Of a stretch of DNA of 53,791 nt, positions 16,880 to 51,300 are shown piece after piece. A model generated the notes under the pieces. It was not told the DNA's origin and searched no databases. It worked only from the letters and a program-made list of their open reading frames with translations. The DNA is from Defluviitaleaceae bacterium (GTDB lineage Bacteria > Bacillota > Clostridia > Lachnospirales > WRAX01): positions 1-53,791 of the forward strand of contig WRAC01000014.1 in the NCBI GenBank assembly GCA_009780415.1. The letters run 5' to 3'. The position numbers and the translations under genes are program-made. Within the stretch, counting starts at the first letter, position 1. The number at the start of each line of letters is the position of its first letter.

Positions 16880-18406
16880 TTAAATAGAAAGATTGCTGGT
16901 GATTACATTATATGACCGGTCCCTGTTGTCGATAATTATGTATCTGCCGCTCTGCGGAAAATTATCGGGCCGGTAGGTTTTTATGATGTACTTGCCGTTA
17001 CCGTCGAAACGGATCGCCACCGATTTCGAATACCCTTCCCTGCCCGGTTCCTTTTCATCGATAGTAAGGCTTGCGTTATATTCCTTCAGGGTCTTGAATG
17101 TTGTTTCAAAACCTATCCCGCCGTCCTTTTTTTCAACGCTTGTAGATACCCGCTCCGTTCCAAGCCGCACGAGGGTATCCACTTTGAAAGGCGCGCCGCC
17201 GTCAAACACGGTAAACCCGAAATGCTTCCCCGAAAGCCCCACTACCACCAGAATATCCCGATAGGGCGAGCCGCTTGATTCTATGGCGTTGATAGCGTTA
17301 TGGATATGCCCGCTTATAAGCACCTCAAGCTTTCCCTGATCGACATTTTTCTCAACCATATTTGCGATATTGCCTTTTATTATGAGGTTGAAATTTATAT
17401 TTTCCTCTTCGCATTTCACCAAATAGTACGCGAATATCCTGTCCAGCATTTTTATGCCTGTGGAAGGCAGTTCCTTGGTTATCTTCAAATTCCACTCCAC
17501 CGTCCGCATCTCATCCGTTAACTTGCTTATATCTTCCAACATGCTGACCAGTTCATCGCCCGAAACGCTTCCACCGTCATTTTGGCTTGTTTTCACGCTA
17601 AGCTCCATCGCTGCGAGCCGGCTGTTAATGTTATGGTGCGCAACCCGCAATTCGTTAAGCTGGGCTAATAATTGATTGTTTTCCAGTTCTTTTTTTTCAA
17701 GTTCTGTTTGCATTTGGAAAAGTATAAATTCGTCCCCGATTAATTCCAGGATAGAATCGGAATTCCCGGAAGTTTTAAGGTTTAACGTATTCTTCACAAC
17801 ATTGCGCTCTAACGCCGCCAGCCGGTTGCTAATGTTTTGGTGTATTATTTGCAATTCTTCTATCTTTTGAATCAGCTTGGCGTTTTCCTGTTCTTTCTGT
17901 TCCAGGCTGTTTTCAAGAAGCCGGTTTTCAGCGGTCTTTTCAGCTAATTTGCTTTCCAGCACCGCTTGGCTTCCTCTTTTGGGGCGCGTATCCGGTTCGT
18001 GAAAGATACCGCCACGTTTAATCCTGATGCCGATAAAACGGGCGGAAATAACGGAAACAAGGCATTGTGACAACGCAAACAATACGGGTATATTGCCTTC
18101 CATTTCAAATAAGTCATTTATTAAGCCAAACAGGTAGAGAAACGTAAAACCTATCGCCGCAGAGAATAAAAACGGCGGGATAAGCTTGCCCGGATTTAAT
18201 TTCGTTATGATATATATAAGCAGCGCGAACGCCGCGCACACTATAAAATGCAAAAGCAATCCGGGCATCCAAGTTGAAGCAAACGAAAAAAGAACCGCGC
18301 AAACGAGACAGGCCAGCACGATGAATATTATCTCGCGCCGGGAAAGTTTGCGCCAGATTATATTATTCAATATTAACAAACACGAGAAAAGGAACCCAAA
18401 TACCAC
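16880..18406 (-). CDS. GHKL-type membrane sensor histidine kinase with two H-box-like repeats, 508 aa
   Basis: Five hydrophobic segments at residues about 1-20, 25-43, 47-68, 75-96 and 105-127 form a polytopic sensor of the AgrC/DpiB-like kind. A long coiled-coil (145-275) contains two similar blocks, IIHQNISNRLAALE (187-200) and VAHHNINSRLAAME (255-268). They look like duplicated phosphoacceptor H-boxes (H189 and H257/H258). The ATPase domain has an N-box-like HIHNAINAIE (367-376), a G1-like FDGGAPF and GGIGFETT. It lies just downstream of, and is surely partnered with, the response regulator at 18469-19332. The annotated GTG start has no good ribosome site. The frame is open upstream to about 18445, where GGGGGG precedes ATT and ATA codons, so a non-standard start is possible. 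Confidence 0.8.
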   Translation of the reverse strand: MVFGFLFSCLLILNNIIWRKLSRREIIFIVLACLVCAVLFSFASTWMPGLLLHFIVCAAFALLIYIITKLNPGKLIPPFLFSAAIGFTFLYLFGLINDLFEMEGNIPVLFALSQCLVSVISARFIGIRIKRGGIFHEPDTRPKRGSQAVLESKLAEKTAENRLLENSLEQKEQENAKLIQKIEELQIIHQNISNRLAALERNVVKNTLNLKTSGNSDSILELIGDEFILFQMQTELEKKELENNQLLAQLNELRVAHHNINSRLAAMELSVKTSQNDGGSVSGDELVSMLEDISKLTDEMRTVEWNLKITKELPSTGIKMLDRIFAYYLVKCEEENINFNLIIKGNIANMVEKNVDQGKLEVLISGHIHNAINAIESSGSPYRDILVVVGLSGKHFGFTVFDGGAPFKVDTLVRLGTERVSTSVEKKDGGIGFETTFKTLKEYNASLTIDEKEPGREGYSKSVAIRFDGNGKYIIKTYRPDNFPQSGRYIIIDNRDRSYNVITSNLSI

Positions 18407-18468
18407 GGCAGCTTCACTTACGACTACGGCAGGCTGTATGGCAATCCCCCCGTTCTTAGAATCTATAT

Positions 18469-19332
18469 CTATATGGCCTTTCGGATTTTGTCCGCGTAAT
18501 AATGAATGAATTCAACCGGGGACGGCACGCCGAGCCTCTTGTCCACCCGCGCGGTGTAGTACTGTTGGAGGTCCTCAATGTCGGAACCGTCCCATGTCTT
18601 GTTTATTGCGGTTTGTATAGCCCTGATAACCGAACTGTAGTTCACCCCCGTCACTTGGGCGACTTGGTTAAGCACGGTTTCAGAATCACGGCTTCCATTG
18701 CCCTGCCGGTTTAAATCCTTGGTTACGAGGATATTTATTGCTTTTTCAAGGTAACCGCGCCCTTTGTAGCGGACGCTTATGCCAATTAAATCCAGCTCTT
18801 CATTTATCATCGTATTTATTTTTGCTTGAACATTCATTTTATTAATTTTGGCGGGAACCATTTCATCCGAATATTCCGTCATTATGCCGTCGTCATCGTC
18901 GTCGTCCGTGCCGTCGTCGCCCATATTCGCTTCGCGCAAGTCAAGCATGAGGTTTATTATCATTTCGATTTTGAAGCCTTTTTGCCTCTTAAAAAAAATC
19001 AGATCGACGCCCTTGTCACGAACCAGATTATGTACCATATTAGACGGCGTATTCGTCGAAACGACAATTATCGGCTTTGGGTCTTCCAGTTCGCTTATGC
19101 CGCTTAAAAAGTCCATCCCGCTTCCAACCCCCCGCAGCAGCTCAAGGTCAAGTATAATACCCTCCGGGGCATGGTTATGCACATATCTGATGCCGTCGGC
19201 GCTCGAATCGGTCATGCCTACAAATTGAATCTTATTCCTGAAATTATAAGACTCGGCAAGCTCCCGGTACTTGACGCGCACAGCAGTGTCGTCCTCGATG
19301 AGCAGCAGTCTCATCGGCTTTTTTCTACCCAT
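18469..19332 (-). CDS. Response regulator with Spo0A-like DNA-binding domain, 287 aa
   Basis: The N-terminal receiver domain (about 7-125) shows the acidic pair in LLIEDD and the phosphoacceptor D62 in IILDLELL. An acidic linker (GTDDDDDDG) follows. The C-terminal half resembles the Spo0A effector domain: ISVRYKGRGYLEKAINILV corresponds to the Spo0A pattern around the KGYxYLREAI helix. VNYSSVIRAIQTAINKTW matches the recognition-helix block normally read as SRVERAIRHAIEVAW. It is not Spo0A itself, since the linker and ends differ, but could bind 0A-box-like sites. AAGGAG stands 8 bases before the ATG at 19332; a longer frame to 19374 lacks a site. The kinase follows immediately. Confidence 0.82.
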   Translation of the reverse strand: MGRKKPMRLLLIEDDTAVRVKYRELAESYNFRNKIQFVGMTDSSADGIRYVHNHAPEGIILDLELLRGVGSGMDFLSGISELEDPKPIIVVSTNTPSNMVHNLVRDKGVDLIFFKRQKGFKIEMIINLMLDLREANMGDDGTDDDDDDGIMTEYSDEMVPAKINKMNVQAKINTMINEELDLIGISVRYKGRGYLEKAINILVTKDLNRQGNGSRDSETVLNQVAQVTGVNYSSVIRAIQTAINKTWDGSDIEDLQQYYTARVDKRLGVPSPVEFIHYYADKIRKAI

Positions 19333-19838
19333 CTTTGTACGCTCCTTAGGAAAGAGATATATTTCACTATTCATATTAGAGCAATTATATGACTAAATAT
19401 TCAGTATAGCTGCATAAATTATTCATATTTTTAATGCATAAAACTTCATCATACCCATGTTTATTTCTGTTATAATATATTCAATTAATTCTTTGCCCTA
19501 AATTACCCCTCTTTGTCCTGTATAAAAATGCCGTGACCTGCAATGTTAAAAAATGCATTTAACGCTGCGTTTATGCTATTTTTGCTTAAAAATACTGTGA
19601 TTTAAAGCATAAATGTACTCCGGTGATGCATGTTTCTTCATAGCGCTTGTCCGCGTTTCTGTTATAGTTATGTTGTCGTTAGTGCTACTAAGTGCAGTAA
19701 AATTCGGTTGACAACTCTAATAACAGAAATTGTAACATAAAAGTATAAATTTTGCAACAACAATTTAATTCATTAGAGTTCATCCGATATCACTGCTGGT
19801 TGCTTAATGACAAATAAACCTGGACCGGGGTGATTAAA
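19333..19838. promoter_or_regulatory. AT-rich divergent regulatory region with repeated TTTCTGTTAT motif
   Basis: These 506 bases carry no gene. The 10-mer TTTCTGTTAT occurs at 19464-19473 and 19656-19665, and inverted at 19720-19729 (ATAACAGAAA). A plausible sigma-A promoter for the rightward gene is TTGACA at 19708-19713 with a 17-bp spacer and TGTAAC at 19731-19736, so the inverted copy lies inside the spacer. Weak TTTGTC strings (for example 19512) recall 0A boxes but none is a full TTTGTCGAA. The repeats are candidates for operators of the adjacent Spo0A-like regulator; this is inference. Confidence 0.45.
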
Positions 19839-20114
19839 ATGACACACTTGCAAAAAGACTATTTGCGCGAAGCCGAAAAGTTTTCATACGAGAAGCTGAC
19901 AAAAGAAGAATGGATTGCTATGCGGAAAGCGGAAAACGGGAGCCACAATTTGTTTGTAAACATGATGCTGACAAGTGGGAATTGGAATAACCCCTCTATA
20001 ATGAAGTTTACAAATGCCGGGGTCCCGGTTGAGGACGTTGAATTTGGAACAATGTTAAATGAAATCATTGACTTACATAAGTTGCCGATGGCTGTCAGCG
20101 ATAAAACGGATTAA
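19839..20114 (+). CDS. Small unrecognised protein with KLTKEEW motif, 91 aa
   Basis: I do not recognise a family. The protein is hydrophilic, with no signal or membrane segment. It contains KLTKEEWIAMRKAENG near residues 17-32, a motif that recurs as KLTKEEWEEMQRRRNE in the 60-aa protein encoded at 21381-21563. The start is taken at the ATG at 19839 because GGGGTG lies six bases upstream; the GTG at 19830 overlaps that site. A sigma-A-like promoter is visible 100 bp upstream and a clear terminator follows 17 bp after the stop, so it appears to be a single-gene transcript. Low GC and lack of homologues suggest acquisition or a lineage-specific gene. Confidence 0.65.
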   Translation: MTHLQKDYLREAEKFSYEKLTKEEWIAMRKAENGSHNLFVNMMLTSGNWNNPSIMKFTNAGVPVEDVEFGTMLNEIIDLHKLPMAVSDKTD

Positions 20115-20130
20115 ATTCCGCTGTTGATTC

Positions 20131-20168
20131 AATGTAAGCCTAATTTAAAAAATAGGCTTACATTTTTT
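20131..20168 (+). terminator. Strong rho-independent terminator
   Basis: A perfect 12-bp stem (AATGTAAGCCTA at 20131-20142, TAGGCTTACATT at 20153-20164) with a 10-base loop runs into a T stretch. It separates the 91-aa gene from the next pair. Confidence 0.88.
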
Positions 20169-20211
20169 ATGCAAATTTTTGGCGTAACTGCGTACAGGGG
20201 GAGCGGTTTTT

Positions 20212-20835
20212 ATGCAGGAATGGGATAAGTTTATTGAGCAAATAAGAAATATTGCTGTTAAATTGGATGAAGACGTATTCTCAATGTATGGCGGGTGCGT
20301 TATATGTACGCTTGATAATATTGAACAAATAAAAGCCACGTTTATTGAAAGCCATGCTCTGATGATGAGGGAAATGGACGAAGAAACCGAGAATTTAGAG
20401 CATCACAAGCTCATATCCTCAAGTGTGAAATCAATTCTTAAATATCCCATATTCACGGTGGCCGCGGATGCTGCGGACGAAATGTTAAAAAAAGACCCTT
20501 TGCCTATTAAAGCAAGGTATCCGAACGAGTATTTCGCGTATATTGCCATTTGGTCACTTATGGCGGATTTCGGCGCCGCGTTTAAAAATAGGTTATGGAA
20601 TATTGAATCATATACATTCAAATTTCCCGATTATTTATATTATACCAAAAAAGACGGGGATGACTACTACGCCCACAGCTTTCAGTATGCCGAGGTTATG
20701 ATAAAACTCCTGCATCACTTGGGGAAAGACGTAGACAATTTTCCTTTATTTACATTCAACCATACGTTGCAAACTCTGGAAATGCTTAACGATTGCGTAT
20801 TCCATGGGTTTGCCAACAAGTATTTTGGGGAGTGA
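20212..20835 (+). CDS. Unrecognised protein, 207 aa
   Basis: No family is recognised. The protein is soluble-looking and rich in aromatic and acidic residues, with predicted long helices (QEWDKFIEQIRNIAVKLDED, ALMMREMDEETENLEHHKL). A mixed segment ESYTFKFPDYLYYTKKDGDDYY is followed by HSFQYAEVMIKLLHHLGKD. It has no Cys cluster, Walker motif or signal peptide. GGGGGAG stands 9 bases before the ATG. The following gene starts six bases after its stop and is surely cotranscribed, so the two products may interact. The terminator upstream shows that the pair has its own promoter, which I could not define. Confidence 0.65.
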   Translation: MQEWDKFIEQIRNIAVKLDEDVFSMYGGCVICTLDNIEQIKATFIESHALMMREMDEETENLEHHKLISSSVKSILKYPIFTVAADAADEMLKKDPLPIKARYPNEYFAYIAIWSLMADFGAAFKNRLWNIESYTFKFPDYLYYTKKDGDDYYAHSFQYAEVMIKLLHHLGKDVDNFPLFTFNHTLQTLEMLNDCVFHGFANKYFGE

Positions 20836-20841
20836 TTTTTC

Positions 20842-21378
20842 ATGGATGAAAAACATAAGAGAAGAATAATCTCTGACGCGTATGCGGAAACAGAACGGGA
20901 CATTAAATCTGTTGATACGTTTAAAGCCGTGAATTTCCCACGCATAGATAAATATTTGAATGATAATTCGGGAACGATAGATAAATATGAACGCGGGTTA
21001 AGCCCAACAGACGAGTTGGAAAAGCTTGCGCACACGATGGTAAAGACATTCTCGATGAAGCCAATACTGATACCAAGCGTAATTACGCTGCGTTCTGTTT
21101 ATGACGAAATACCAAACATCGTTATTGATGAACGCGTCCTCCGCCCCAACGATATGCTGTGCAAAGAGATGATGTACGCGGTGCACAGGGAGATTGCAGC
21201 CAAACGCACTGATCTCGCGCTATTTGACAGGAAGTATTTAGACAGTTTTATGGAACCCTTCATTGACCGCATGGAAGAAGTAAGGGGTAAACTTACGGAT
21301 ATAGAAGGCATTACGCCCTATTTTATCACAAAATCTTTAGGGTTAATTATGGGTATTCATGAGGACATTATTAAATAA
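20842..21378 (+). CDS. Unrecognised protein, 178 aa
   Basis: No family is recognised. The chain is helical and charged (KHKRRIISDAYAETERDIK at the N-terminus), with SPTDELEKLAHTMVKTF and a C-terminal block MEPFIDRMEEVRGKLTDIEG. It ends in a moderately hydrophobic segment TPYFITKSLGLIMGI. There is no obvious catalytic motif. GGGGAGTG precedes the ATG, partly inside the end of the 207-aa gene, giving coupling. It converges on the 60-aa gene with two bases between stops. Confidence 0.62.
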   Translation: MDEKHKRRIISDAYAETERDIKSVDTFKAVNFPRIDKYLNDNSGTIDKYERGLSPTDELEKLAHTMVKTFSMKPILIPSVITLRSVYDEIPNIVIDERVLRPNDMLCKEMMYAVHREIAAKRTDLALFDRKYLDSFMEPFIDRMEEVRGKLTDIEGITPYFITKSLGLIMGIHEDIIK

Positions 21379-21380
21379 TA

Positions 21381-21563
21381 TCACCGCATCCGTTGATTTT
21401 TCTGTTTTATATCATTATAAAGCGTTTCCATTTCATCTAAATAATCTTGCTCTGTTTTATTTGAATCCTCATTACGCCTCCGTTGCATTTCCTCCCATTC
21501 CTCCTTCGTAAGCTTGGGATACTGCCATGTCTCCCGGTCTATTTTTTTGCCCTTTTCACACAC
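21381..21563 (-). CDS. Small KLTKEEW-motif protein, 60 aa
   Basis: The product (MCEKGKKIDRETWQYPKLTK at the start) shares the block KLTKEEWxxM with the 91-aa protein at 19839-20114, and otherwise is a charged helix rich in Glu, Gln and Asn. The start is set at a GTG at 21563 because GGAGG lies exactly seven bases upstream. The longer open frame to 21698 has no such site and includes an unlikely hydrophobic lead. An overlapping ATG two bases away is out of frame. Function is unknown; the shared motif suggests two members of one small lineage-specific family flanking the unknown gene pair. Confidence 0.6.
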   Translation of the reverse strand: MCEKGKKIDRETWQYPKLTKEEWEEMQRRRNEDSNKTEQDYLDEMETLYNDIKQKNQRMR

Positions 21564-21650
21564 ATAAGCGCCTCCATGGATAAGAGTGACTTCCCTTGTC
21601 CAGTTTATGCAAAAAAACATTATTATATGCAGGAGGTTAAGGAATTGTTT

Positions 21651-21680
21651 AAGAATATTCGAATATTCCTTGAATATTCC
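21651..21680. repeat. Three GAATATTC palindromes in a 205-bp intergenic gap
   Basis: GAATATTC occurs at 21653-21660, 21661-21668 and 21672-21679. The first two together form a near-perfect palindrome. They lie in the gap 21564-21768, upstream of the 40-aa basic gene and of the leftward 60-aa gene, and could be an operator. I see nothing else in this gap. Confidence 0.4.
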
Positions 21681-21768
21681 TGTTAATTTTACGCACACTA
21701 TTTATACCATCTTACTATCATTTAGATTGCAACATGGTATTAAAATGCGGAAAATTCAGGAGGTCAAA

Positions 21769-23413: not shown

Positions 23414-24622
23414 CTATTTAAGCACTTCATCCCTCGCTGTTTTTATTAATTCCAGCAGTTCAATTACCCTTTCCGCCAGAACTTCCATGCTGGTATAGAT
23501 ACTGTTTCTAAAAGCTTTAATATCTTCCTTAACCCCTTTATGGGCAACGCTTAAATTAACCGCGTTACTGCTATCCGTTAAATCCACATACCTTTGGAAT
23601 TCCAATAATGCCGCGTTGGGTACTACTCCGGGGTCGATTGCGTGCATTTTGGCGAAAAACTGCAACGCAACCGCCAGCCACCATACCTGAGGGCTGCTTT
23701 TCCATTTATCAACTTCGCTGTTGAACTTTTTATATAACTGCCCCAGCTTGCGCCTTAAAGATTCCCCGCAGGGGCTGTATTCCGCAACGCCGCAATTCGT
23801 AAGCTCCCTGCTTACATCGTTCAATTTATTATGTACACACCCATAAAACGCCCTCATGCTTTTACCGTTGCTTCTCTCTTCATAAAAGTCAACGGTAAAA
23901 AAGCATTTGTAGCGTTTCAGCAGATCGTAAAGTATATCCGCCGACTTGTCCGCCTGCCCGGATGCCGCAAGTTCAGCCGCTCTTTTTACGCCTTCGTAAA
24001 CCCGGACATAAAAAGCGTCCTTTTCAATCAGCTCAGGATCATACTTCGTCTCCATTAACAGGGCTTTCAACGAATCATAAACGGAACAGGAGAAGTCATT
24101 AAGGCTGTTCCGATATCCGTACTCCGCATGCAAACAAGAGGCGATCCCGCTTATAAACAGTTTCCTGTCATCGCCGCAAACCTCACTGTAGACATATGTA
24201 TCGCGTCCCGCGTCCAGGTCTATGCTGTAAGAATCGCGTATGCGGTTCAGCTCGTATGTGGTGTCATTACATCCGCATTCCGCTGCCAGTGTTATCACCG
24301 TCCCGCAGCTCAGGCACCTCTGTCTCCTTACGGCGCCTTTCCCAACGCTTTTGTCTTCACATCTATTTTCACACGCATTCGCGCAGCATGACCTCACATA
24401 GTTAAAGCAGGGCCTTTTTGAATCCCCGAAGCCATCAAAAAGCGGTTCGCGCAATACCCAATTTTGCTGATTGCTGTGCGCTTGCCAAAATATCAAATTA
24501 TAAAGTTCGTCTTCCATATAGGGCTTTACCGTCTGTTGTTCGCCTATTTTCCTCACAAAGTACCAAACTGGGGCATCACAGGTACGCGTCAAGGCGTCCT
24601 TAAAGGTTTGATCGTGAATCAT
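23414..24622 (-). CDS. Cysteine-rich unknown protein, third gene of the PRTase-like operon, 402 aa
   Basis: I do not recognise a family. The N-terminal 120 residues carry ten cysteines (C15, C72, C79, C80, C84, C88, C103, C106, C116, C118). The CLSC and CGC pairs look like a zinc-ribbon-type metal site. The rest is helical, with a long amphipathic C-terminus (KEDIKAFRNSIYTSMEVLAE onward). No membrane helix is visible. The ATG follows directly on the TAG stop of the upstream gene, with its GGAGG inside that gene's last codons, so the two are tightly coupled and probably form a complex. It is the last gene of the operon that starts near 27390. Confidence 0.7.
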   Translation of the reverse strand: MIHDQTFKDALTRTCDAPVWYFVRKIGEQQTVKPYMEDELYNLIFWQAHSNQQNWVLREPLFDGFGDSKRPCFNYVRSCCANACENRCEDKSVGKGAVRRQRCLSCGTVITLAAECGCNDTTYELNRIRDSYSIDLDAGRDTYVYSEVCGDDRKLFISGIASCLHAEYGYRNSLNDFSCSVYDSLKALLMETKYDPELIEKDAFYVRVYEGVKRAAELAASGQADKSADILYDLLKRYKCFFTVDFYEERSNGKSMRAFYGCVHNKLNDVSRELTNCGVAEYSPCGESLRRKLGQLYKKFNSEVDKWKSSPQVWWLAVALQFFAKMHAIDPGVVPNAALLEFQRYVDLTDSSNAVNLSVAHKGVKEDIKAFRNSIYTSMEVLAERVIELLELIKTARDEVLK

Positions 24623-26539
24623 CTATACCTCCGGGCTTGAAGAAATTCTACATCCTAAAGCATCAGCCTCTCTGTTGCATTCATCATTTGAAATTAAGGG
24701 ACTGACTCCCTGTTCGTCTCCCTCTATCTGACCCTTCATTACGATATCGAGGAATTTTTGCTCATTATTATAATTCAGCCTTATGCTTGCCTCAAAATTA
24801 CGCTCATTAAAAACCGCGCGCACATCCTTCGGCCATATGGGCCTAAGATTCTCAATAAATCCGCGCAGATTCTCCCTCATCCGTTCATAACCGCCAACCG
24901 CTATCTTAAACGCAAATAAAGCGTTCAAAACGACGGGCGGAATGTCGATATAAGCGGCCTTAATTGAATTTTCGCCCGCAATAAGCGCCCTGCTGCCCCA
25001 TTCCTTGCCGTCCCTTGTGCGCGTGTAAAAGGAATCGGAGGAGCAAACGCTTTCCTCCATCAGCGGGACAACCACCTTGCGCATGCATATCCCGGCGGCA
25101 TCCCGGTCAAGCCCCATATTCTGGAAAGCATGGGAAAGGACAACCCTGACGGGCTTTGACTTGAAGGTGTTTCTGCCTTTGCAATGCTGCATCAAAACCC
25201 CAAAGTGAGCCTTGACTTTCGCGTAATCCACGCCGCCCTCCCCCCGGCGAAGGGGGTCGACATCCTCAAAATGCATTTTAACAAGCTCAAGCTCGGGGTG
25301 CCCTTCCAAATCCTCTATATCGTTAAATTGAAAATAATCGTCAATCCTATCATAGCCGTTGAAGGGGCCTTGCCCTTCCTCAAGCTGGAACATACCTTGC
25401 ATTCTTTCCAGGATTCCTTCAATTTTCGCAACATCCTCAAACTTCAGCCCTTTGATGAAGTCGTTGAAATTAGCCCCGAAATGGGCTTTGGGCGGCATAA
25501 GCCCGTAAACCATCTTATTGTACAGCGCATCACTAAGGCCTTGTTCCCTTAGCATGTTAAAGAATTTAAAACCCAGGCAATGGTTCAGGATACAATTAAC
25601 GGCCCTTTGGTAGTTAACGCAAACGACATTCCTTTCCAAACCGTCGCCCAGCGCCATTTCAATAAATTCGGCCAGGTTTCCGTTCCGGGACAGCTCCACA
25701 TCGTCCCTCAGGCATTCCATAAAGTATTTCGCGCTGTCAAAATCAAAGCAGTCAAGGGCTACGAAGGGAACGAAGCTCACCATATAACCGTCGCTGTAGC
25801 TTACAAAACTATAGCCTACATGCTGGCTGAATGTAGGCCAAGGTGATGTTACCGCTTTATCAGACGCAACCAGCAAATATTTGTCCTCTAATATATTATC
25901 CGGCTTAAGCGCGTCCAGTAATTTAACTTCGTGTCTTTCCTTTATCCATGTGCCGCCGTTATGGATTTTCTCAATCAAACCCTCAATCTGTGCCATTTCC
26001 TCACTGGATACGGTATTAATCCTGCTGATTGGTGTTTCTATATAATAGACCAGCCCAATAGTCTGGATTGCGTGCACCTGGCGTAGGGAGAACTCCTCCA
26101 TTTCGGACGCGCACATGTCGACCATGCAGAACAAGCGTTCCGCTATCCCGTCCTCTATTTTACCGGACACATTCCGCGCGTACACATATACGGATATGGC
26201 GGCGCACTCAAATTTATCCCGAAGCGTCGCCAGCAGCACGGATAACTTGGCCGCCATGCGCACCGCGTCGTCCACAAGCAGCACCTTTTTGCCCCTGAAC
26301 AGCTCCTTCTCATACCGTCCAACCTTATTTATCACGCGGTCCGAATAAACATGCTTGCCGTCCAGATTGCAACCGCACAGGCGCCAAACCAGATACAGAA
26401 TATACGCCTTTCTCGACACCAAAATTATAACTTCATAATCGCTTTTCTTTATATTTTCGAAAAATCGGAATAATCTCTCGGTATGAACCTTGCCCATTGT
26501 TCTCTCAAACTTTTTGCGGGCCTCTTCATCTCTACTCAC
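24623..26539 (-). CDS. Phosphoribosyltransferase-like protein of unknown role, 638 aa
   Basis: The first about 150 residues follow the type I phosphoribosyltransferase fold. YEVIILVSRKAYILYLVWRL stands where the first core strand and helix occur. KKVLLVDDAVRMAAKLSVLL occupies the PRPP-loop position and keeps the VDD acidic pair, but the usual TGxT is replaced by RMAAK. PRPP binding may therefore be altered or lost. The remaining about 480 residues are not recognised; they contain helical blocks and a region around LVASDKAVTSPWPTFSQHVG. No signal or membrane helix is visible. The start is GTG with GGGAGGG nine bases upstream. It is the middle gene of a three-gene operon, and its stop abuts the ATG of the cysteine-rich gene. 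Such PRTase-like domains fused to large unknown regions are often found in conflict or regulatory systems; assignment here is inference. Confidence 0.68.
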   Translation of the reverse strand: MSRDEEARKKFERTMGKVHTERLFRFFENIKKSDYEVIILVSRKAYILYLVWRLCGCNLDGKHVYSDRVINKVGRYEKELFRGKKVLLVDDAVRMAAKLSVLLATLRDKFECAAISVYVYARNVSGKIEDGIAERLFCMVDMCASEMEEFSLRQVHAIQTIGLVYYIETPISRINTVSSEEMAQIEGLIEKIHNGGTWIKERHEVKLLDALKPDNILEDKYLLVASDKAVTSPWPTFSQHVGYSFVSYSDGYMVSFVPFVALDCFDFDSAKYFMECLRDDVELSRNGNLAEFIEMALGDGLERNVVCVNYQRAVNCILNHCLGFKFFNMLREQGLSDALYNKMVYGLMPPKAHFGANFNDFIKGLKFEDVAKIEGILERMQGMFQLEEGQGPFNGYDRIDDYFQFNDIEDLEGHPELELVKMHFEDVDPLRRGEGGVDYAKVKAHFGVLMQHCKGRNTFKSKPVRVVLSHAFQNMGLDRDAAGICMRKVVVPLMEESVCSSDSFYTRTRDGKEWGSRALIAGENSIKAAYIDIPPVVLNALFAFKIAVGGYERMRENLRGFIENLRPIWPKDVRAVFNERNFEASIRLNYNNEQKFLDIVMKGQIEGDEQGVSPLISNDECNREADALGCRISSSPEV

Positions 26540-26592
26540 TTAAAACTCCCTCCCCTGCTACATTATGCTTTCGCGTTACCCCCGGTTACTTA

Positions 26593-26648
26593 TCGGATTT
26601 ATCTTGTCGGATTTATCTTGTCGGATTTATCTTATCGGATTTATCAAA
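26593..26648. repeat. 14-bp tandem repeat, four units, inside the operon gap
   Basis: Unit TCGGATTTATCTTG at 26593-26606 and 26607-26620, TCGGATTTATCTTA at 26621-26634, and a partial fourth at 26635-26648. It lies in the 183-bp gap between the first and second genes of the PRTase-like operon. The rest of the gap shows nothing else. Confidence 0.85.
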
Positions 26649-26722
26649 TGTTTAATTCTATGCCCGTTGCCACGGGTTTAGAATTTGTGCCGGGAATACT
26701 TGTCCGCAAATCTTTGGACGCA

Positions 26723-27280
26723 TCAGCCGATGCGCCAATCAACATCCGCGAAAAACGGGTCAATACCGGCGGTCAACTCGCTCAGGCGTTCCTTGTGGCC
26801 AATGCCTAATTTTGTGGAAGGGGCGTTTTTCAACCGCATTGCCGCGCCGTCAAATATTTTCCACCGCAAAGAGCCCGTCCCGCCGTCATGCAGAACCAGC
26901 GCAAGCAGCTGCTTTGCCTCAGGCGCGGCAAGCTGGCGGTCATGCCGCAGCAAGGAAATATATTTCAGCGTGTTGACTATGTCAATCTGCACAACTTTTA
27001 TTTTCAGCCTGTCAATAGCCTTTGCCACCGCTTCGGAGCCCGTAACGGCCTTGGCCATCCGTTCGGCGATAATATTATTGTAAAGCTTCTCCGCGTCCGC
27101 TCCGGTTACCCCGGCCCCCGTAAAGTCCGCAAGCCTGCCCCATGCCGGGGACGATTTCAATTGCGAAATGATATCGGCCGGCGGCGTATTTAAGTTAAGC
27201 TTATCCTCAATAATATCCTGAAGCGCCAAAACCACATCCAGACCGTTGCTTTCCTTTCTCGACGCAAACGTCACGCTCAT
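26723..27280 (-). CDS. Unrecognised protein, first gene of the PRTase-like operon, 185 aa
   Basis: No family is recognised. The chain is helical with alternating Ala/Leu-rich and charged segments (NGLDVVLALQDIIEDKLNLN, KLYNNIIAERMAKAVTG, EAVAKAIDRLKIKVVQID) and a Trp in LRWKIFDGA. No membrane helix, signal or metal motif is visible. The start is set at ATG 27280 because GGAAGGGG stands upstream; the longer frame to 27313 begins inside that site. A strong sigma-A promoter at 27394-27422 leaves a leader of about 107 bases. A 183-bp gap with a tandem repeat separates it from the PRTase-like gene on the same strand, so operon membership is likely but not proven. Confidence 0.65.
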   Translation of the reverse strand: MSVTFASRKESNGLDVVLALQDIIEDKLNLNTPPADIISQLKSSPAWGRLADFTGAGVTGADAEKLYNNIIAERMAKAVTGSEAVAKAIDRLKIKVVQIDIVNTLKYISLLRHDRQLAAPEAKQLLALVLHDGGTGSLRWKIFDGAAMRLKNAPSTKLGIGHKERLSELTAGIDPFFADVDWRIG

Positions 27281-27393
27281 GTTGCCCCACCCCTTCCAAA
27301 ATAAACCGAACAATCCTAAAACAATCCAGAAAACATGTTTTTTTAAGTTTATCCAAATAATCCGAATTTTTTGGATTTTCCGAACTTTTTGTC

Positions 27394-27422
27394 ATTCTAG
27401 CACAAACACATCTTTTTGTCAA
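27394..27422 (-). promoter_or_regulatory. Strong sigma-A promoter of the PRTase-like operon
   Basis: On the minus strand a perfect TTGACA (27422-27417), 17-bp spacer and TAGAAT (27399-27394). The transcribed leader to 27280 is AT-rich and holds a 7-bp inverted repeat, ATCCAAA/TTTGGAT, that could fold. The bases 27281-27393 hold no gene. Confidence 0.8.
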
Positions 27423-27521: not shown

Positions 27522-27758
27522 TCAGCTTTGCGGAGGTGTGGGCGTGGCGGAGGTAAACTCCTTATACCCAGAGATATCCACGTACCTTCTTGTGTTGACG
27601 TTGTAATCGGCGGCCAAGGCCAGGAGTTCGTTATAAAGCTCGGACACCAACCGTACCGAATCATCTTCGGGGATTTTGACTTCATAATCTATCGGTAATC
27701 TTATTTGATAATTTCGATTACCTGTGCTATAATTTTTTTGCTGTAAGTTGATTGTCAT
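27522..27758 (-). pseudogene. N-terminal fragment of an IS1182-type transposase
   Basis: The first about 40 residues (YQIRLPIDYEVKIPEDDSVR and the following LV) match the usual opening of IS1182-family transposases, which reads like YQLKLPLxxEYxIPxDDSVRLL. After that the frame continues for 35 residues of unrelated-looking sequence (YNVNTRRYVDISGYKEF) and stops. The full-length enzyme would be about 450-550 aa, so the rest has been lost or replaced. No good ribosome site is visible. Confidence 0.55.
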
Positions 27759-34665: not shown

Positions 34666-35270
34666 TTATAAATACCGCACACCAACGGCCATATCGGTCT
34701 TCGTTATCGGGAATACATCATCCGCCATGCAGACAACACAGCCTTCGCCCCGCTGCATATCGGGGATTTTATCAAGCTGCTTAAACGCGGTTATATCTCC
34801 CTTATCGCAGTTTATATGCTTCTTGACTTCTATGGGGTAGAGAATGCCGTTGCGTTTAATGAGCAAGTCGATTTCGTTGCCATCTTTGTCGCGGAAGAAA
34901 TAGAAATTCATGCTGGGGATGACACCGTTTGAATTTGCCCATGACTTGATAATCGCTGGGAACCCGAAAGCACAAACGCGCCTTTGGCTCCGGTTTTGCC
35001 GATGTGAATTTTAATATATGGGAAAAGCGATGGCGCGTATTGAATTTCATCTATAAAGACAGGCGGCTCGAATTGCTCGAAGAATTCCTCCGGCCGTTCC
35101 AATGCAAGCCGTAGCAATCTGCTTTCGTCTAATGTCAGTTCCTTATGCCCTATAAACAGGATTTTCAATACGGACGATTTACCGACTTGTCTCGCGCCTG
35201 TTACGCAGAGCGCACCCTTTTCATTTATCGCTGATTTTAATACTTCTTCGATGTGCCGCTTGATATACAC
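34666..35270 (-). pseudogene. Internally deleted DUF4143-type AAA ATPase
   Basis: The 5' part (35270 to about 34915) encodes the ATPase domain with Walker A GARQVGKS and Walker B VFIDEIQ and ends near VLSGSQ. The 3' part (34911-34666), in a different frame, encodes the C-terminal FYFFRDKDGNEIDLLI block typical of DUF4143 proteins with a nuclease-like fold. The middle, about 190 codons, is missing. Intact members are about 400 aa and are often called ATP-binding protein of unknown role. AAAGGAGA precedes the ATG at 35270, so the 5' fragment may still be translated. The 203 bp between this and the stalk gene (34463-34665) hold nothing recognisable. Confidence 0.75.
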
Positions 35271-36153: not shown

Positions 36154-36168
36154 TTGGGAGCCAACTCA

Positions 36169-37560
36169 ATGCGTCAAGCTGCCTTATACATGCGAATGTC
36201 CACAGATAAGCAAGATAACTCAATAGCTTCCCAGGAACGGGTTTTAAAGGATTACGCGGATAAAAACAGATATAAAATCGTCGATTCATATGTAGACGAG
36301 GGCATATCCGGGCGGGCTGCTGAAAAGCGGCCGGCTTTTATGCGTATGATTGATGATAGTGGTAAAGAGTTGTTTGATGTGGTTCTGGTTTACGATTCAT
36401 CTAGATTCGCCCGCAACTTGGAAGAATCTATCGTATATAAATCTGTCCTGAAGCGCAACGGAGTGGCACTTATTTCGATCACAGAACCAACCCTAGACGA
36501 TGACAGCGCTTTGATTACCGACGCCATGCTCGGCGCATTAAATGAAATGTATTCCCGCAAATTATCAAGGGCCGTAAAGCGTGGCATGGTCGATGGCGCA
36601 ATGAAGGGGAAGTTCCAAACGCCGCCGCCTTTTGGCTATGCGAAGGAAAACAGAAAGCTCGTTATATTACCAGATGAAGCAAAAACTGTTCAGATGATTT
36701 TTTCATTTTTTACGGAAAGACCATCTTGGCATAGTGTTGCCGTGCAGTTAAATGATCTGGGAATCGGGAAGCGTAAGGCTTATGGATGGTATTCACGTGA
36801 CGTAAAACGTATGTTGCTTAATCCGGTTTATATCGGAAAGTTAAATTATGACGGCAATGTTTACAATGGCGAACATGATCCGATAATTGATTTTGAAACA
36901 TGGGAAACAGTGCAATCAATAATACAAAATAAACCTAAGGGTAGAACAAGACCGCCATCAACATATAAACATTGGCTTTCGGGTATTATGAGGTGTGCGT
37001 ATTGCGGCGGCAGGATGAATCACAGTTATGAAAACGTAAATAATAAACTAAACGCTTATTATCGTTGCAGTAAAGGCGCAAACGGATGCTGCAAATACAA
37101 GAATTGTCTTGGCATAAAAAAACTTGAAGCTGCTGTGAAACAGGCTCTTGAAATGGTTGTAAAGGATGATAATTTAGCTGAGTACGCGCATTTCACAAAA
37201 AGGAAAGAAGTAAACGAGCTGGATGCGCTCAACACCGCCTTAAATAAAATCCGTGTTAAGCTTGAGCGTCACAAGGCCGCATATTCAAGCGGCGTTGATT
37301 CGCTGGAGGAATATAGGGAAAACAAAGAAAAATGCACCCAGGATGAAAAATCTATACTAGAGAAGATAGCTTATGTGACAGATGAAAGAATAACCGGCGA
37401 AAAGATAGGCAGCCTTAAAAAATCGGCAAAAAATCTCATTGACATCTTATTTCACAGTGATCAGTCCATCGAACAGAAAAGCAATGCGATAAAATCGGTG
37501 ATTGATAAAATTGTTATAGATAAATACAACGCTACATTTGATTTTTATTATTTTTTATAA
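36169..37560 (+). CDS. Large serine recombinase (resolvase/integrase family), 463 aa
   Basis: The N-terminal resolvase domain shows the catalytic serine S11 in YMRMSTDKQ, then SIASQERVLKDYA, VDEGISGRAAEKRPAF and the catalytic arginines in YDSSRFARNLEES. A recombinase domain follows (PPPFGYAK, NDLGIGKRKAYGWYSRDVKR, LLNPVYIGKL). Then a zinc ribbon with CAYCGGRMNH and CSKGANGCCKYKNC, and a C-terminal coiled-coil (NTALNKIRVKLERHKAAYSS). The protein looks complete. Such enzymes integrate and excise mobile elements at att sites. The last codons overlap the stop of truncated murA by six bases, so an att site probably lies right at the junction. The start at 36169 follows TTGGGAG at eight bases. Confidence 0.9.
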   Translation: MRQAALYMRMSTDKQDNSIASQERVLKDYADKNRYKIVDSYVDEGISGRAAEKRPAFMRMIDDSGKELFDVVLVYDSSRFARNLEESIVYKSVLKRNGVALISITEPTLDDDSALITDAMLGALNEMYSRKLSRAVKRGMVDGAMKGKFQTPPPFGYAKENRKLVILPDEAKTVQMIFSFFTERPSWHSVAVQLNDLGIGKRKAYGWYSRDVKRMLLNPVYIGKLNYDGNVYNGEHDPIIDFETWETVQSIIQNKPKGRTRPPSTYKHWLSGIMRCAYCGGRMNHSYENVNNKLNAYYRCSKGANGCCKYKNCLGIKKLEAAVKQALEMVVKDDNLAEYAHFTKRKEVNELDALNTALNKIRVKLERHKAAYSSGVDSLEEYRENKEKCTQDEKSILEKIAYVTDERITGEKIGSLKKSAKNLIDILFHSDQSIEQKSNAIKSVIDKIVIDKYNATFDFYYFL

Positions 37561-38496
37561 ACACCGTCCCTTATTACACTTTGGAAATCCGGGGTGCGGT
37601 TCTGTGGTGAGGGTTGCCAGCGATTGCAGTCTGGACGGAGCGCGCAGCCAGCAATAATCCTTGCCGTCTTTAATGGTACAGCCCGCGTCCGACAGCCGGG
37701 TGTAAATGGGGCGTATATGATCCGTAATTACGCCAGTCAGCAGCAGCTCGCCGCCGGTCATTGCCGCCGCGCAGAGGTATGTGCCCGCTACTATGCGGTC
37801 GGGGATTACGCTATGCGATGCGTCATGAAGCCGCTTAACGCCCTCGATCACAATCGTACCGGTGCCCGCCCCGCGCACCTTCGCGCCCGCGCGAATCAAA
37901 TAATCCGCCAGTTCAACGATCTCCGGCTCCAACGCCGCGTTACGGATAACCGTCTCGCCTTCCGCAAGGACTGCGGCAAGCAGAATATTCTCCGTCGCGC
38001 CCACAGACGGCGACGGCAATGTAATTTGCTGCCCGGTAAGCTTTGCATTAGAACATAACAGCAGCTCTTTCTCGCAATCCTTAATAACGTCCGCTCCCAT
38101 CATTCGCAGCGCTTCCAGGTGATAGTCAAAGTTGCGCGCGCCTAAAGAGCACCCGCCGGGGAAACTTAGCTCCACTTCGCCGAAACGCCCCAGCATACTG
38201 CCTAAAAAAAGAATTGACGAGCGCATGAGCTTTGCCAGTTCCGCAGGCACAACCAAGGAACCGATGCCGCCGGAATCAACCGTAACGGTACCGTCCCTGA
38301 ATGAAGCCTCGCAGCCCAGCGCGCGTAGTATATCAAGCGTGTTAAATACATCCGTTATCTCCGGTACGTTGTGTATAATGCTTTTACCGCTGTTCAAAAC
38401 CGCGGCGGACAATATAGGCAAAACAGCGTTCTTCGCCCCGCCGGGGGTAATCTGCCCCGCTATCCGTAATCCGCCCCTCACATGGTATTCACCCAT
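37555..38496 (-). pseudogene. murA: MurA (UDP-N-acetylglucosamine enolpyruvyltransferase), 3'-truncated
   Basis: MurA makes the first committed step of peptidoglycan synthesis. This copy starts well (GGGAGG before ATG 38496, GGAKNAVLP with the conserved Lys-Asn, FPGGCSLGARNFDYHL with the active-site cysteine and LTTEPHPGFP) and then stops following native codons. In normal MurA GFP is followed by TDMQAQ, whose Asp is the general base (D305 in E. coli numbering). Here it continues KCNKGRCL and stops. Native sequence ends near residue 305 of about 420, so about 110 codons, including the catalytic aspartate, are absent. The break lies exactly where the serine recombinase gene ends. The missing 3' part was not found elsewhere in the window. 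Confidence 0.85.
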
Positions 38497-38623
38497 GGTA
38501 TTACCTCCCACAGGAATGCGTCAATATACCATTCTATGGGGGACAATTTTTGGGGGTTACTGGCTGATTGACATTTAACGCGGGCGCAGATAAAATAGAT
38601 GTTGAACGGAGGCGCCGAACGGA

Positions 38624-50362: not shown

Positions 50363-50602
50363 ATGTTGGCGTTAACCAGAAAGAAAAACGAATCCATAAT
50401 AATTGGAGATAATATAGAAGTGGTTGTTTTAAGCGTACAGGGTGACCAGGTAAAGCTTGGCATTGCCGCGCCCAGGGATATATCCGTCCACCGCAAGGAA
50501 ATTTACGAGCAAATACAACAGGAAAACCGTGCCGCGTCCCATATCGAATGCGTGGATACGCGTAATATTCTGGAGCTTTTGAAGAATCAAAAGGCGGAGT
50601 AA
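50363..50602 (+). CDS. csrA: Carbon storage regulator CsrA, 79 aa
   Basis: CsrA is a small dimeric RNA-binding protein that blocks translation of hag and other mRNAs by binding GGA motifs. The N-terminus [20 protein letters not shown] and the [20 protein letters not shown] block are diagnostic. The C-terminal extension after QQENRAA is slightly longer than the 61 aa of E. coli and fits Firmicute members that bind FliW there. AAGGTCC stands before the ATG. The last 16 bases overlap the convergent comF gene. Confidence 0.95.
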
Positions 50603-51300
50603 CCGGCGTCGTCCCTATCATCACCGCTAGCTGCCGCAAAAGTGAGCGCGCAGACTCTTTTTGCTCCGGCTTTTTTCAATACGCGCGCGCATTCCTCAAC
50701 CGTTGCGCCCGTAGTGTAAATATCGTCCACCAAAATTATGTTTTTATCACGGACGTCACCGGAAACCGTAAACGCGCCGCGCACATTCTCAAAACGCCGT
50801 GTTCTCGTAAGCCCGTACATGGACTCTGTTTTTTGCGTACGGATTAAAGCATTAAATACCGGAATTCCGTATTCGCCTTCAAGCGCAAGAGCCAGCAGCC
50901 CGGCTTGGTTAAAACCGCGTTCATTGATACGGCTTTTATGCAACGGCACGGGAACAAGAAAATCCGCCGCCGCGATGTCATCCTTAAAATCATCGGGCCA
51001 TACGGCCTGTTTCATTAACGCCGCCATTACCGGGGCGTTTTCTTTCATCCCATGGAATTTAAGGCGGCGAACCGCGTCGCGTATCGGCCCTTCATAACGG
51101 AAGGCCGTATGCACACGGTGAAGTTCGCTGTACACAGTCGGAAGCATTGAATGCGCGGCAGGCGCGTATGTATAAACGGTTTCACGGCACTCGGCGCACA
51201 AATCCGTTTCCGCACCGTATTGTTGAACTTCGTCGCATAGCAGGCAGCGTTTAGGGTACAGCAGCATAAGGAGCTTGTTGGCTATCAGACTGGTTTTCAT
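50587..51300 (-). CDS. comF: ComF-family amidophosphoribosyltransferase-like protein, 237 aa
   Basis: ComF proteins take part in DNA uptake in competent bacteria. The sequence has an N-terminal zinc site (C19, C22, C35, C38 as CLLC and CAEC) and then a type I phosphoribosyltransferase domain with the PRPP loop [18 protein letters not shown] complete. The [17 protein letters not shown] block, with the RGFNQ motif, is diagnostic. The start ATG overlaps the stop of the upstream XRE regulator (ATGA), so they are coupled. It converges on csrA with a 16-bp overlap. Unlike the PRTase-like gene at 24623-26539, the TTGAT loop is intact. Confidence 0.88.

Follow-up and report, generated by a model that had tools for sequence, protein, structure and literature searches.

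A three-gene orphan operon with a probable phosphoribosyltransferase-like domain in a Defluviitaleaceae bacterium

Introduction

Phosphoribosyltransferases (PRTases) of type I are housekeeping enzymes whose fold has found other uses, and PurR and PyrR are examples in which PRTase domains are reused for regulation. Here we describe a real orphan operon of three genes, located in a stretch of 53,791 nucleotides from a Defluviitaleaceae bacterium (assembly GCA_009780415.1, contig WRAC01000014.1; hereafter the window), which is contig 14 of a 2.53-Mb genome assembled in 85 contigs. The second gene encodes a large protein whose first 174 residues are best read, at present, as a type I PRTase-like domain, an assignment that is probable, not certain, because the homology is marginal. 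The genes are as follows.

26723 to 27280, minus strand: gene 1, an open reading frame (ORF) for a 185-aa protein, with its ATG at 27280 and a stop codon ending at 26723; no recognised family.
24623 to 26539, minus strand: gene 2, an ORF for a 638-aa protein with a GTG start and a probable N-terminal PRTase-like domain at about residues 1-174.
23414 to 24622, minus strand: gene 3, an ORF for a 402-aa protein with an ATG start and a cysteine cluster at residues 72-118.

PRTases are also known from small operons and from mobile elements. PRTase/winged-helix proteins are the usual effector genes of type III retrons (PMC12548924), a DprA protein paired with a PRTase gives protection from T7 and lambda (PMC9122126), and polyvalent proteins, from phages as well as from conjugative elements, have been described as carrying PRTase domains (PMC5512222).

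When the locus is set beside these systems, the closest likeness is with the type I PRTases (PF00156), including the PurR-type repressors: gene 2 carries a VLLVDD strand and loop in the correct register, and its next strand reads VYARNV where a PurR has VLVRNV. It differs from them in having MAAK in place of TGxT, in scoring below the cut-off, and in continuing for about 460 residues of unknown sequence. With the PRTase-CE family (PF24390) the operon shares a divergent PRTase-like domain among little-known proteins; however, this profile is not listed for gene 2 at E<=10, and the one true member found adjoins, by inspection, a P-loop ATPase and a DNA methylase, neither of which is present in the operon. 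The type III retron effectors and the DprA-PRTase pair likewise involve a PRTase-like protein from a small operon, but no reverse transcriptase or winged-helix gene was recognised among the annotated neighbours of the operon, no DprA gene was found beside it in the Pfam search of these neighbours, and Rfam gave no match in the window, with no retron noncoding RNA recognised next to the operon. The mode of action of gene 2 may resemble that of PRTase relatives that bind a ligand, PurR being an example.

The three genes and their expression

All three ORFs are genuinely coding, each in its own frame only, and their codon bias is that of the host. The in-frame codon log-likelihoods are 0.28, 0.20 and 0.17 for genes 1, 2 and 3, respectively, compared with at most 0.04 in any other frame, and the three genes that had been proposed from the letters alone, for proteins of 185, 638 and 402 aa, are confirmed on the minus strand.

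The GTG start of gene 2 is preceded by the Shine-Dalgarno sequence GGGGAGGGAG. At its other end, the stop codon TAG occupies positions 24625-24623 and the ATG of gene 3 begins at 24622, with no gap, while a GGAGG at 24632-24628 lies within the end of gene 2, 5 nt before this ATG. Because of this junction and of the internal Shine-Dalgarno sequence, genes 2 and 3 are very likely translated in a coupled fashion, so that the earlier suggestion that the products of the two abutting genes are made together agrees with how the junction is arranged.

A gap of about 180 bp separates genes 1 and 2 and holds the following feature.

26589 to 26645, minus strand: 4.1 tandem copies of a 14-bp unit, ATAAATCCGAYAAG in the minus-strand reading, between genes 1 and 2.

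For this reason it is less certain that gene 1 shares a transcript with genes 2 and 3 than that the latter two are coupled. The repeat is possibly a regulator-binding array or a slippage site. Two further candidates in this area were dropped, namely an RNA structure in the gap (z = -0.17) and a LacI-family tail that would face the end of gene 1 from the plus strand (about 26650-26760, TGLEFVPGILVRKS) and that had no Pfam match.

Upstream of gene 1 stands a candidate promoter.

27394 to 27422, minus strand: putative sigma-70 promoter, TTGACA-17-TAGAAT with an extended -10 TG, 11/12 match in a consensus scan.

The sequence-only reading had called it strong. Its match to the consensus is good, but it is one of 13 promoter-like sites in the operon region, where shuffled sequences give 8.0 +/- 3.3, and a second site with an 11/12 match falls inside gene 1; its function is plausible, not proven.

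The PRTase-like domain of gene 2

The part of gene 2 on which this assignment turns is its degenerate loop for phosphoribosyl pyrophosphate (PRPP).

26243 to 26293, minus strand: degenerate PRPP loop of gene 2, GKKVLLVDDAVRMAAKL, residues 83-99, where PRTase profiles align with their PRPP motif.

Compared with the pattern DDxxxTGxT, gene 2 has DDAVRMAAK, in which the DD pair is kept and TGxT has become MAAK. The sequence-only reading was thus right that VDD is retained and TGxT lost, but the RMAAK it gave as the replacement includes one extra residue.

Several searches point to the PRTases. When residues 1-174 were searched alone, PF00156 came first of 24,736 Pfam models (E=0.015), with residues 77-140 aligned in the correct register onto profile positions 81-144. 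In hhalign, residues 1-200 matched 34 PRTase segments from related genomes with a score of 33.5 and a probability of 62.9%, whereas the best of 200 shuffles reached 23.2 and the remaining segments of gene 2 gave at most 13.8. An hmmsearch of gene 2 against a PRTase profile gave 7.4 bits, a value equalled by only one of the 1,813 scored shuffles, and the Smith-Waterman score against a PurR-type repressor was 84 over about 85 residues, the best of 2,000 shuffles being 63. Finally, a search of 391 genomes with gene 2 contributes five purine PRTases, all of the same type and aligned over the VDD motif, out of the 29 non-self matches that were listed and fetched.

By what is established for type I PRTases, the loss of TGxT speaks against PRPP-dependent catalysis, and the domain of gene 2 is unlikely to catalyse such a reaction. 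An ordinary PRTase occurs elsewhere in the same window, as part of a ComF-like protein with a double zinc ribbon at 50587-51300.

The products of genes 1 and 3 and the search for relatives

The gene 1 protein contains no cysteine and is probably soluble. The gene 3 protein has ten cysteines within its first 120 residues, as had been counted before, at positions 15, 72, 79, 80, 84, 88, 103, 106, 116 and 118. Their clustering is mild, being equalled in a 46-aa window by 183 of 20,000 shuffles, and the cluster may bind zinc. The AlphaFold model of this protein, made from the single sequence, has a predicted local distance difference test value (pLDDT) of 34.

No family above cut-off was found for any of the three proteins in Pfam or NCBIfam, none matched in PADLOC or PHROG, and no PDB sequence matched them significantly; the earlier statement that they show no known effector domain holds across all five of these collections. 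There is no clear membrane helix in the three proteins either, the maximum Kyte-Doolittle mean over 19 residues being 1.59.

Relatives were sought in several ways. Whole-genome searches gave matches at noise level only, for gene 2 in 146, 391, 398 and 392 genomes (overlapping sets), for gene 3 in 299 and 392, and for gene 1 in 58 and 392, and many of these matches cross stop codons or fall in unrelated ORFs; each of these searches covered at most 398 genomes, all of one phylum, and absence there is not absence in nature. Pattern scans, which detect close relatives only, yielded no confirmed relative in GTDB for genes 2 and 3, nor in IMG/VR for genes 1, 2 and 3 and for segments of gene 2. A loosened IMG/VR query, consisting of gene 2 residues 31-330 with artificial conservative variants made solely to loosen the search patterns, had no match, and tblastn against 72,556 plasmids and 50,697 phages gave no significant match to the operon proteins. 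In the sequence available, the operon thus appears to be very narrowly distributed.

Surroundings of the operon

Directly upstream of the operon promoter lies the remnant of a mobile element.

27525 to 27758, minus strand: a 78-aa ORF whose first 45 residues or so are a 5' remnant of an IS1182-family transposase.

This remnant matches an Enterococcus faecalis IS1182 transposase in tblastn (40.9% over 44 aa, E=2e-4), has further IS1182 matches, and is present in a single copy in its own genome. Beyond it, on the same strand as the operon, are genes for GH127 and GH43 glycosidases, whereas DUF2935 and DUF362 genes lie downstream of the operon. Because the relatives of DUF2935 in two other genomes of the family adjoin other genes, no empty site can be read from them.

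About 9-10 kb from the operon, in the interval 36154-38511, a large serine recombinase gene is found at 36154-37560 on the plus strand. Some 20 bp from its end, a third murA copy on the minus strand is broken off right after the conserved PHPGFP at about 37580, as though an integration or rearrangement had taken place within murA. Neither the window nor the organism's own genome yielded the missing part, and for this reason element borders cannot be set; the idea that the operon is cargo of an element bounded by this recombinase (36.2-37.6 kb) was dropped for want of such borders.

Neither the operon nor the genes immediately beside it matched a PADLOC model. The only PADLOC match of weight near the operon, about 8 kb away at 34.9-35.3 kb, is to the candidate system PDC-S01 and comes from a degenerate AAA_14 fragment, and thus no defence island was found. 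The fragment belongs to a broken AAA_14 ATPase gene at 34666-35270, probably of the DUF4143 type and split over several short ORFs.

On the other side of the operon, a low-GC stretch at 19830-21378 holds three ORFs (94, 207 and 178 aa) with no family above cut-off, and the 94-aa ORF has a KLTKEEW motif in common with a 105-aa ORF at 21381-21698. A relationship between gene 1 and the ORFs at 19.8-21.4 kb was considered and rejected, there being no similarity. At 16880-19374, a response-regulator domain and a Spo0A-type C-terminal domain are combined in one protein, whose gene adjoins that of a 508-aa protein matching HATPase weakly; the two are possibly a sporulation-type two-component pair.

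Possible function and alternatives

Our proposal, a tentative one that we place somewhat short of probable, is that this is an accessory orphan operon in which a dead PRTase-like domain has been reused for binding or regulation. The N-terminus of gene 2 would be a catalytically dead domain that keeps the DD pair and the SRK and SDR segments, the latter two placed where PRTase loops would be, and that has lost the phosphate-gripping TGxT loop. Because of this loss, the domain would most likely serve as a binding or docking site for a nucleotide, a PRPP-like ligand or a nucleic acid, as in PurR and PyrR. The products of genes 2 and 3, made together through translational coupling, would probably form one complex, the cysteine cluster of gene 3 would provide a probable zinc-binding site, and ligand binding would control the gene 3 protein as well as the large remainder of gene 2. 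That the whole amounts to a new system, i.e., a pseudo-PRTase sensor of nucleotides or nucleic acids that controls a large module and a coupled zinc-binding partner in an accessory and possibly defensive operon, is improbable, having a small chance in our estimate.

A number of observations weigh against this proposal. No PRTase signal of gene 2 reaches any curated cut-off, that of PF00156 being 26.3 bits compared with 12.3 for the full-length protein and 15.1 for the domain alone, and all the signals centre on one short motif (16-28 columns in hmmsearch and hhalign). The PurR match is one of only three non-self hits with E<0.01 among 398 genomes, which is about chance level. Pfam finds no zinc-binding domain or other match on the cysteine-rich segment of gene 3, and the collections searched yielded no homologue that would show conservation of residues, of the gene pair or of the cysteine cluster. 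Some of the evidence would suit the alternative that the N-terminal domain is not a PRTase at all, in which case GKKVLLVDD would be a strand-loop motif of a generic alpha/beta kind and the protein would represent a wholly new family: the hhalign match covers just 28 columns, over the PRPP motif, the same residues 1-174 match DsrH, also a small alpha/beta domain, with a score close behind (second, E=0.036), TGxT is missing, and the AlphaFold model of gene 2 from its single sequence failed (pLDDT 35). Yet PF00156 ranks first and in register when the domain is searched alone, the SRK and SDR segments stand at PRTase loop places, and Response_reg, the usual confounder for VDD, is not listed in Pfam at E<=10. 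We consider this alternative unlikely, with an appreciable chance of being right, and the PRTase-like N-terminus that had been proposed earlier remains the best available reading, although as a marginal one.

Two other explanations concern what the operon is for. It could be a host regulatory or metabolic operon, tied to its glycoside-hydrolase neighbours or to stress, in which the dead PRTase is a sensor of purines or (p)ppGpp; its position on one strand with the flanking GH127 and GH43 genes, the host-like codon usage, the repeat before gene 2 as a conceivable regulator-binding array, and the precedent of PurR for PRTase folds as sensors are all consistent with it. However, the IS1182 remnant lies between the operon and the glycosidases, the two long stretches read around relatives of DUF2935 have no further immediate neighbour in common with the operon locus, and the role of the repeat is only conjectural, which makes this an unlikely explanation to which we would grant a limited chance. 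It is doubtful, with a small chance, that the operon is a conflict module against phages or plasmids, in which, by analogy with the type III retron PRTases and the DprA-PRTase pair, the PRTase-like protein would sense or make a nucleotide signal or be the toxic part, with gene 3 as a zinc-binding partner and gene 1 as a regulator or antitoxin. PRTases are indeed present in tested defence systems (PMC9122126, PMC12548924), mobile-element debris is nearby, and the rarity of the operon fits accessory genes. On the other hand, no reverse transcriptase, DprA, methylase, ATPase or other defence gene is adjacent, codon usage is host-like and not foreign, and no relative was found on the plasmids and phages searched or in IMG/VR, where defence modules tend to occur. 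The link to defence or conflict that the sequence-only reading had drawn is therefore unsupported, not refuted, given the lack of a PADLOC match in the operon and its immediate neighbours and flanks made of glycosidase, DUF362 and DUF2935 genes and mobile-element debris, and such a role is a guess.

Significance

At present, the operon mainly marks a gap in family coverage. Should it be defensive, it would represent a system that is invisible to searches by known markers. If the first domain of gene 2 is a dead PRTase fold, it would show the fold of a housekeeping enzyme put to a new regulatory use, joined in this case to protein families for which the collections searched contain no detectable relative.

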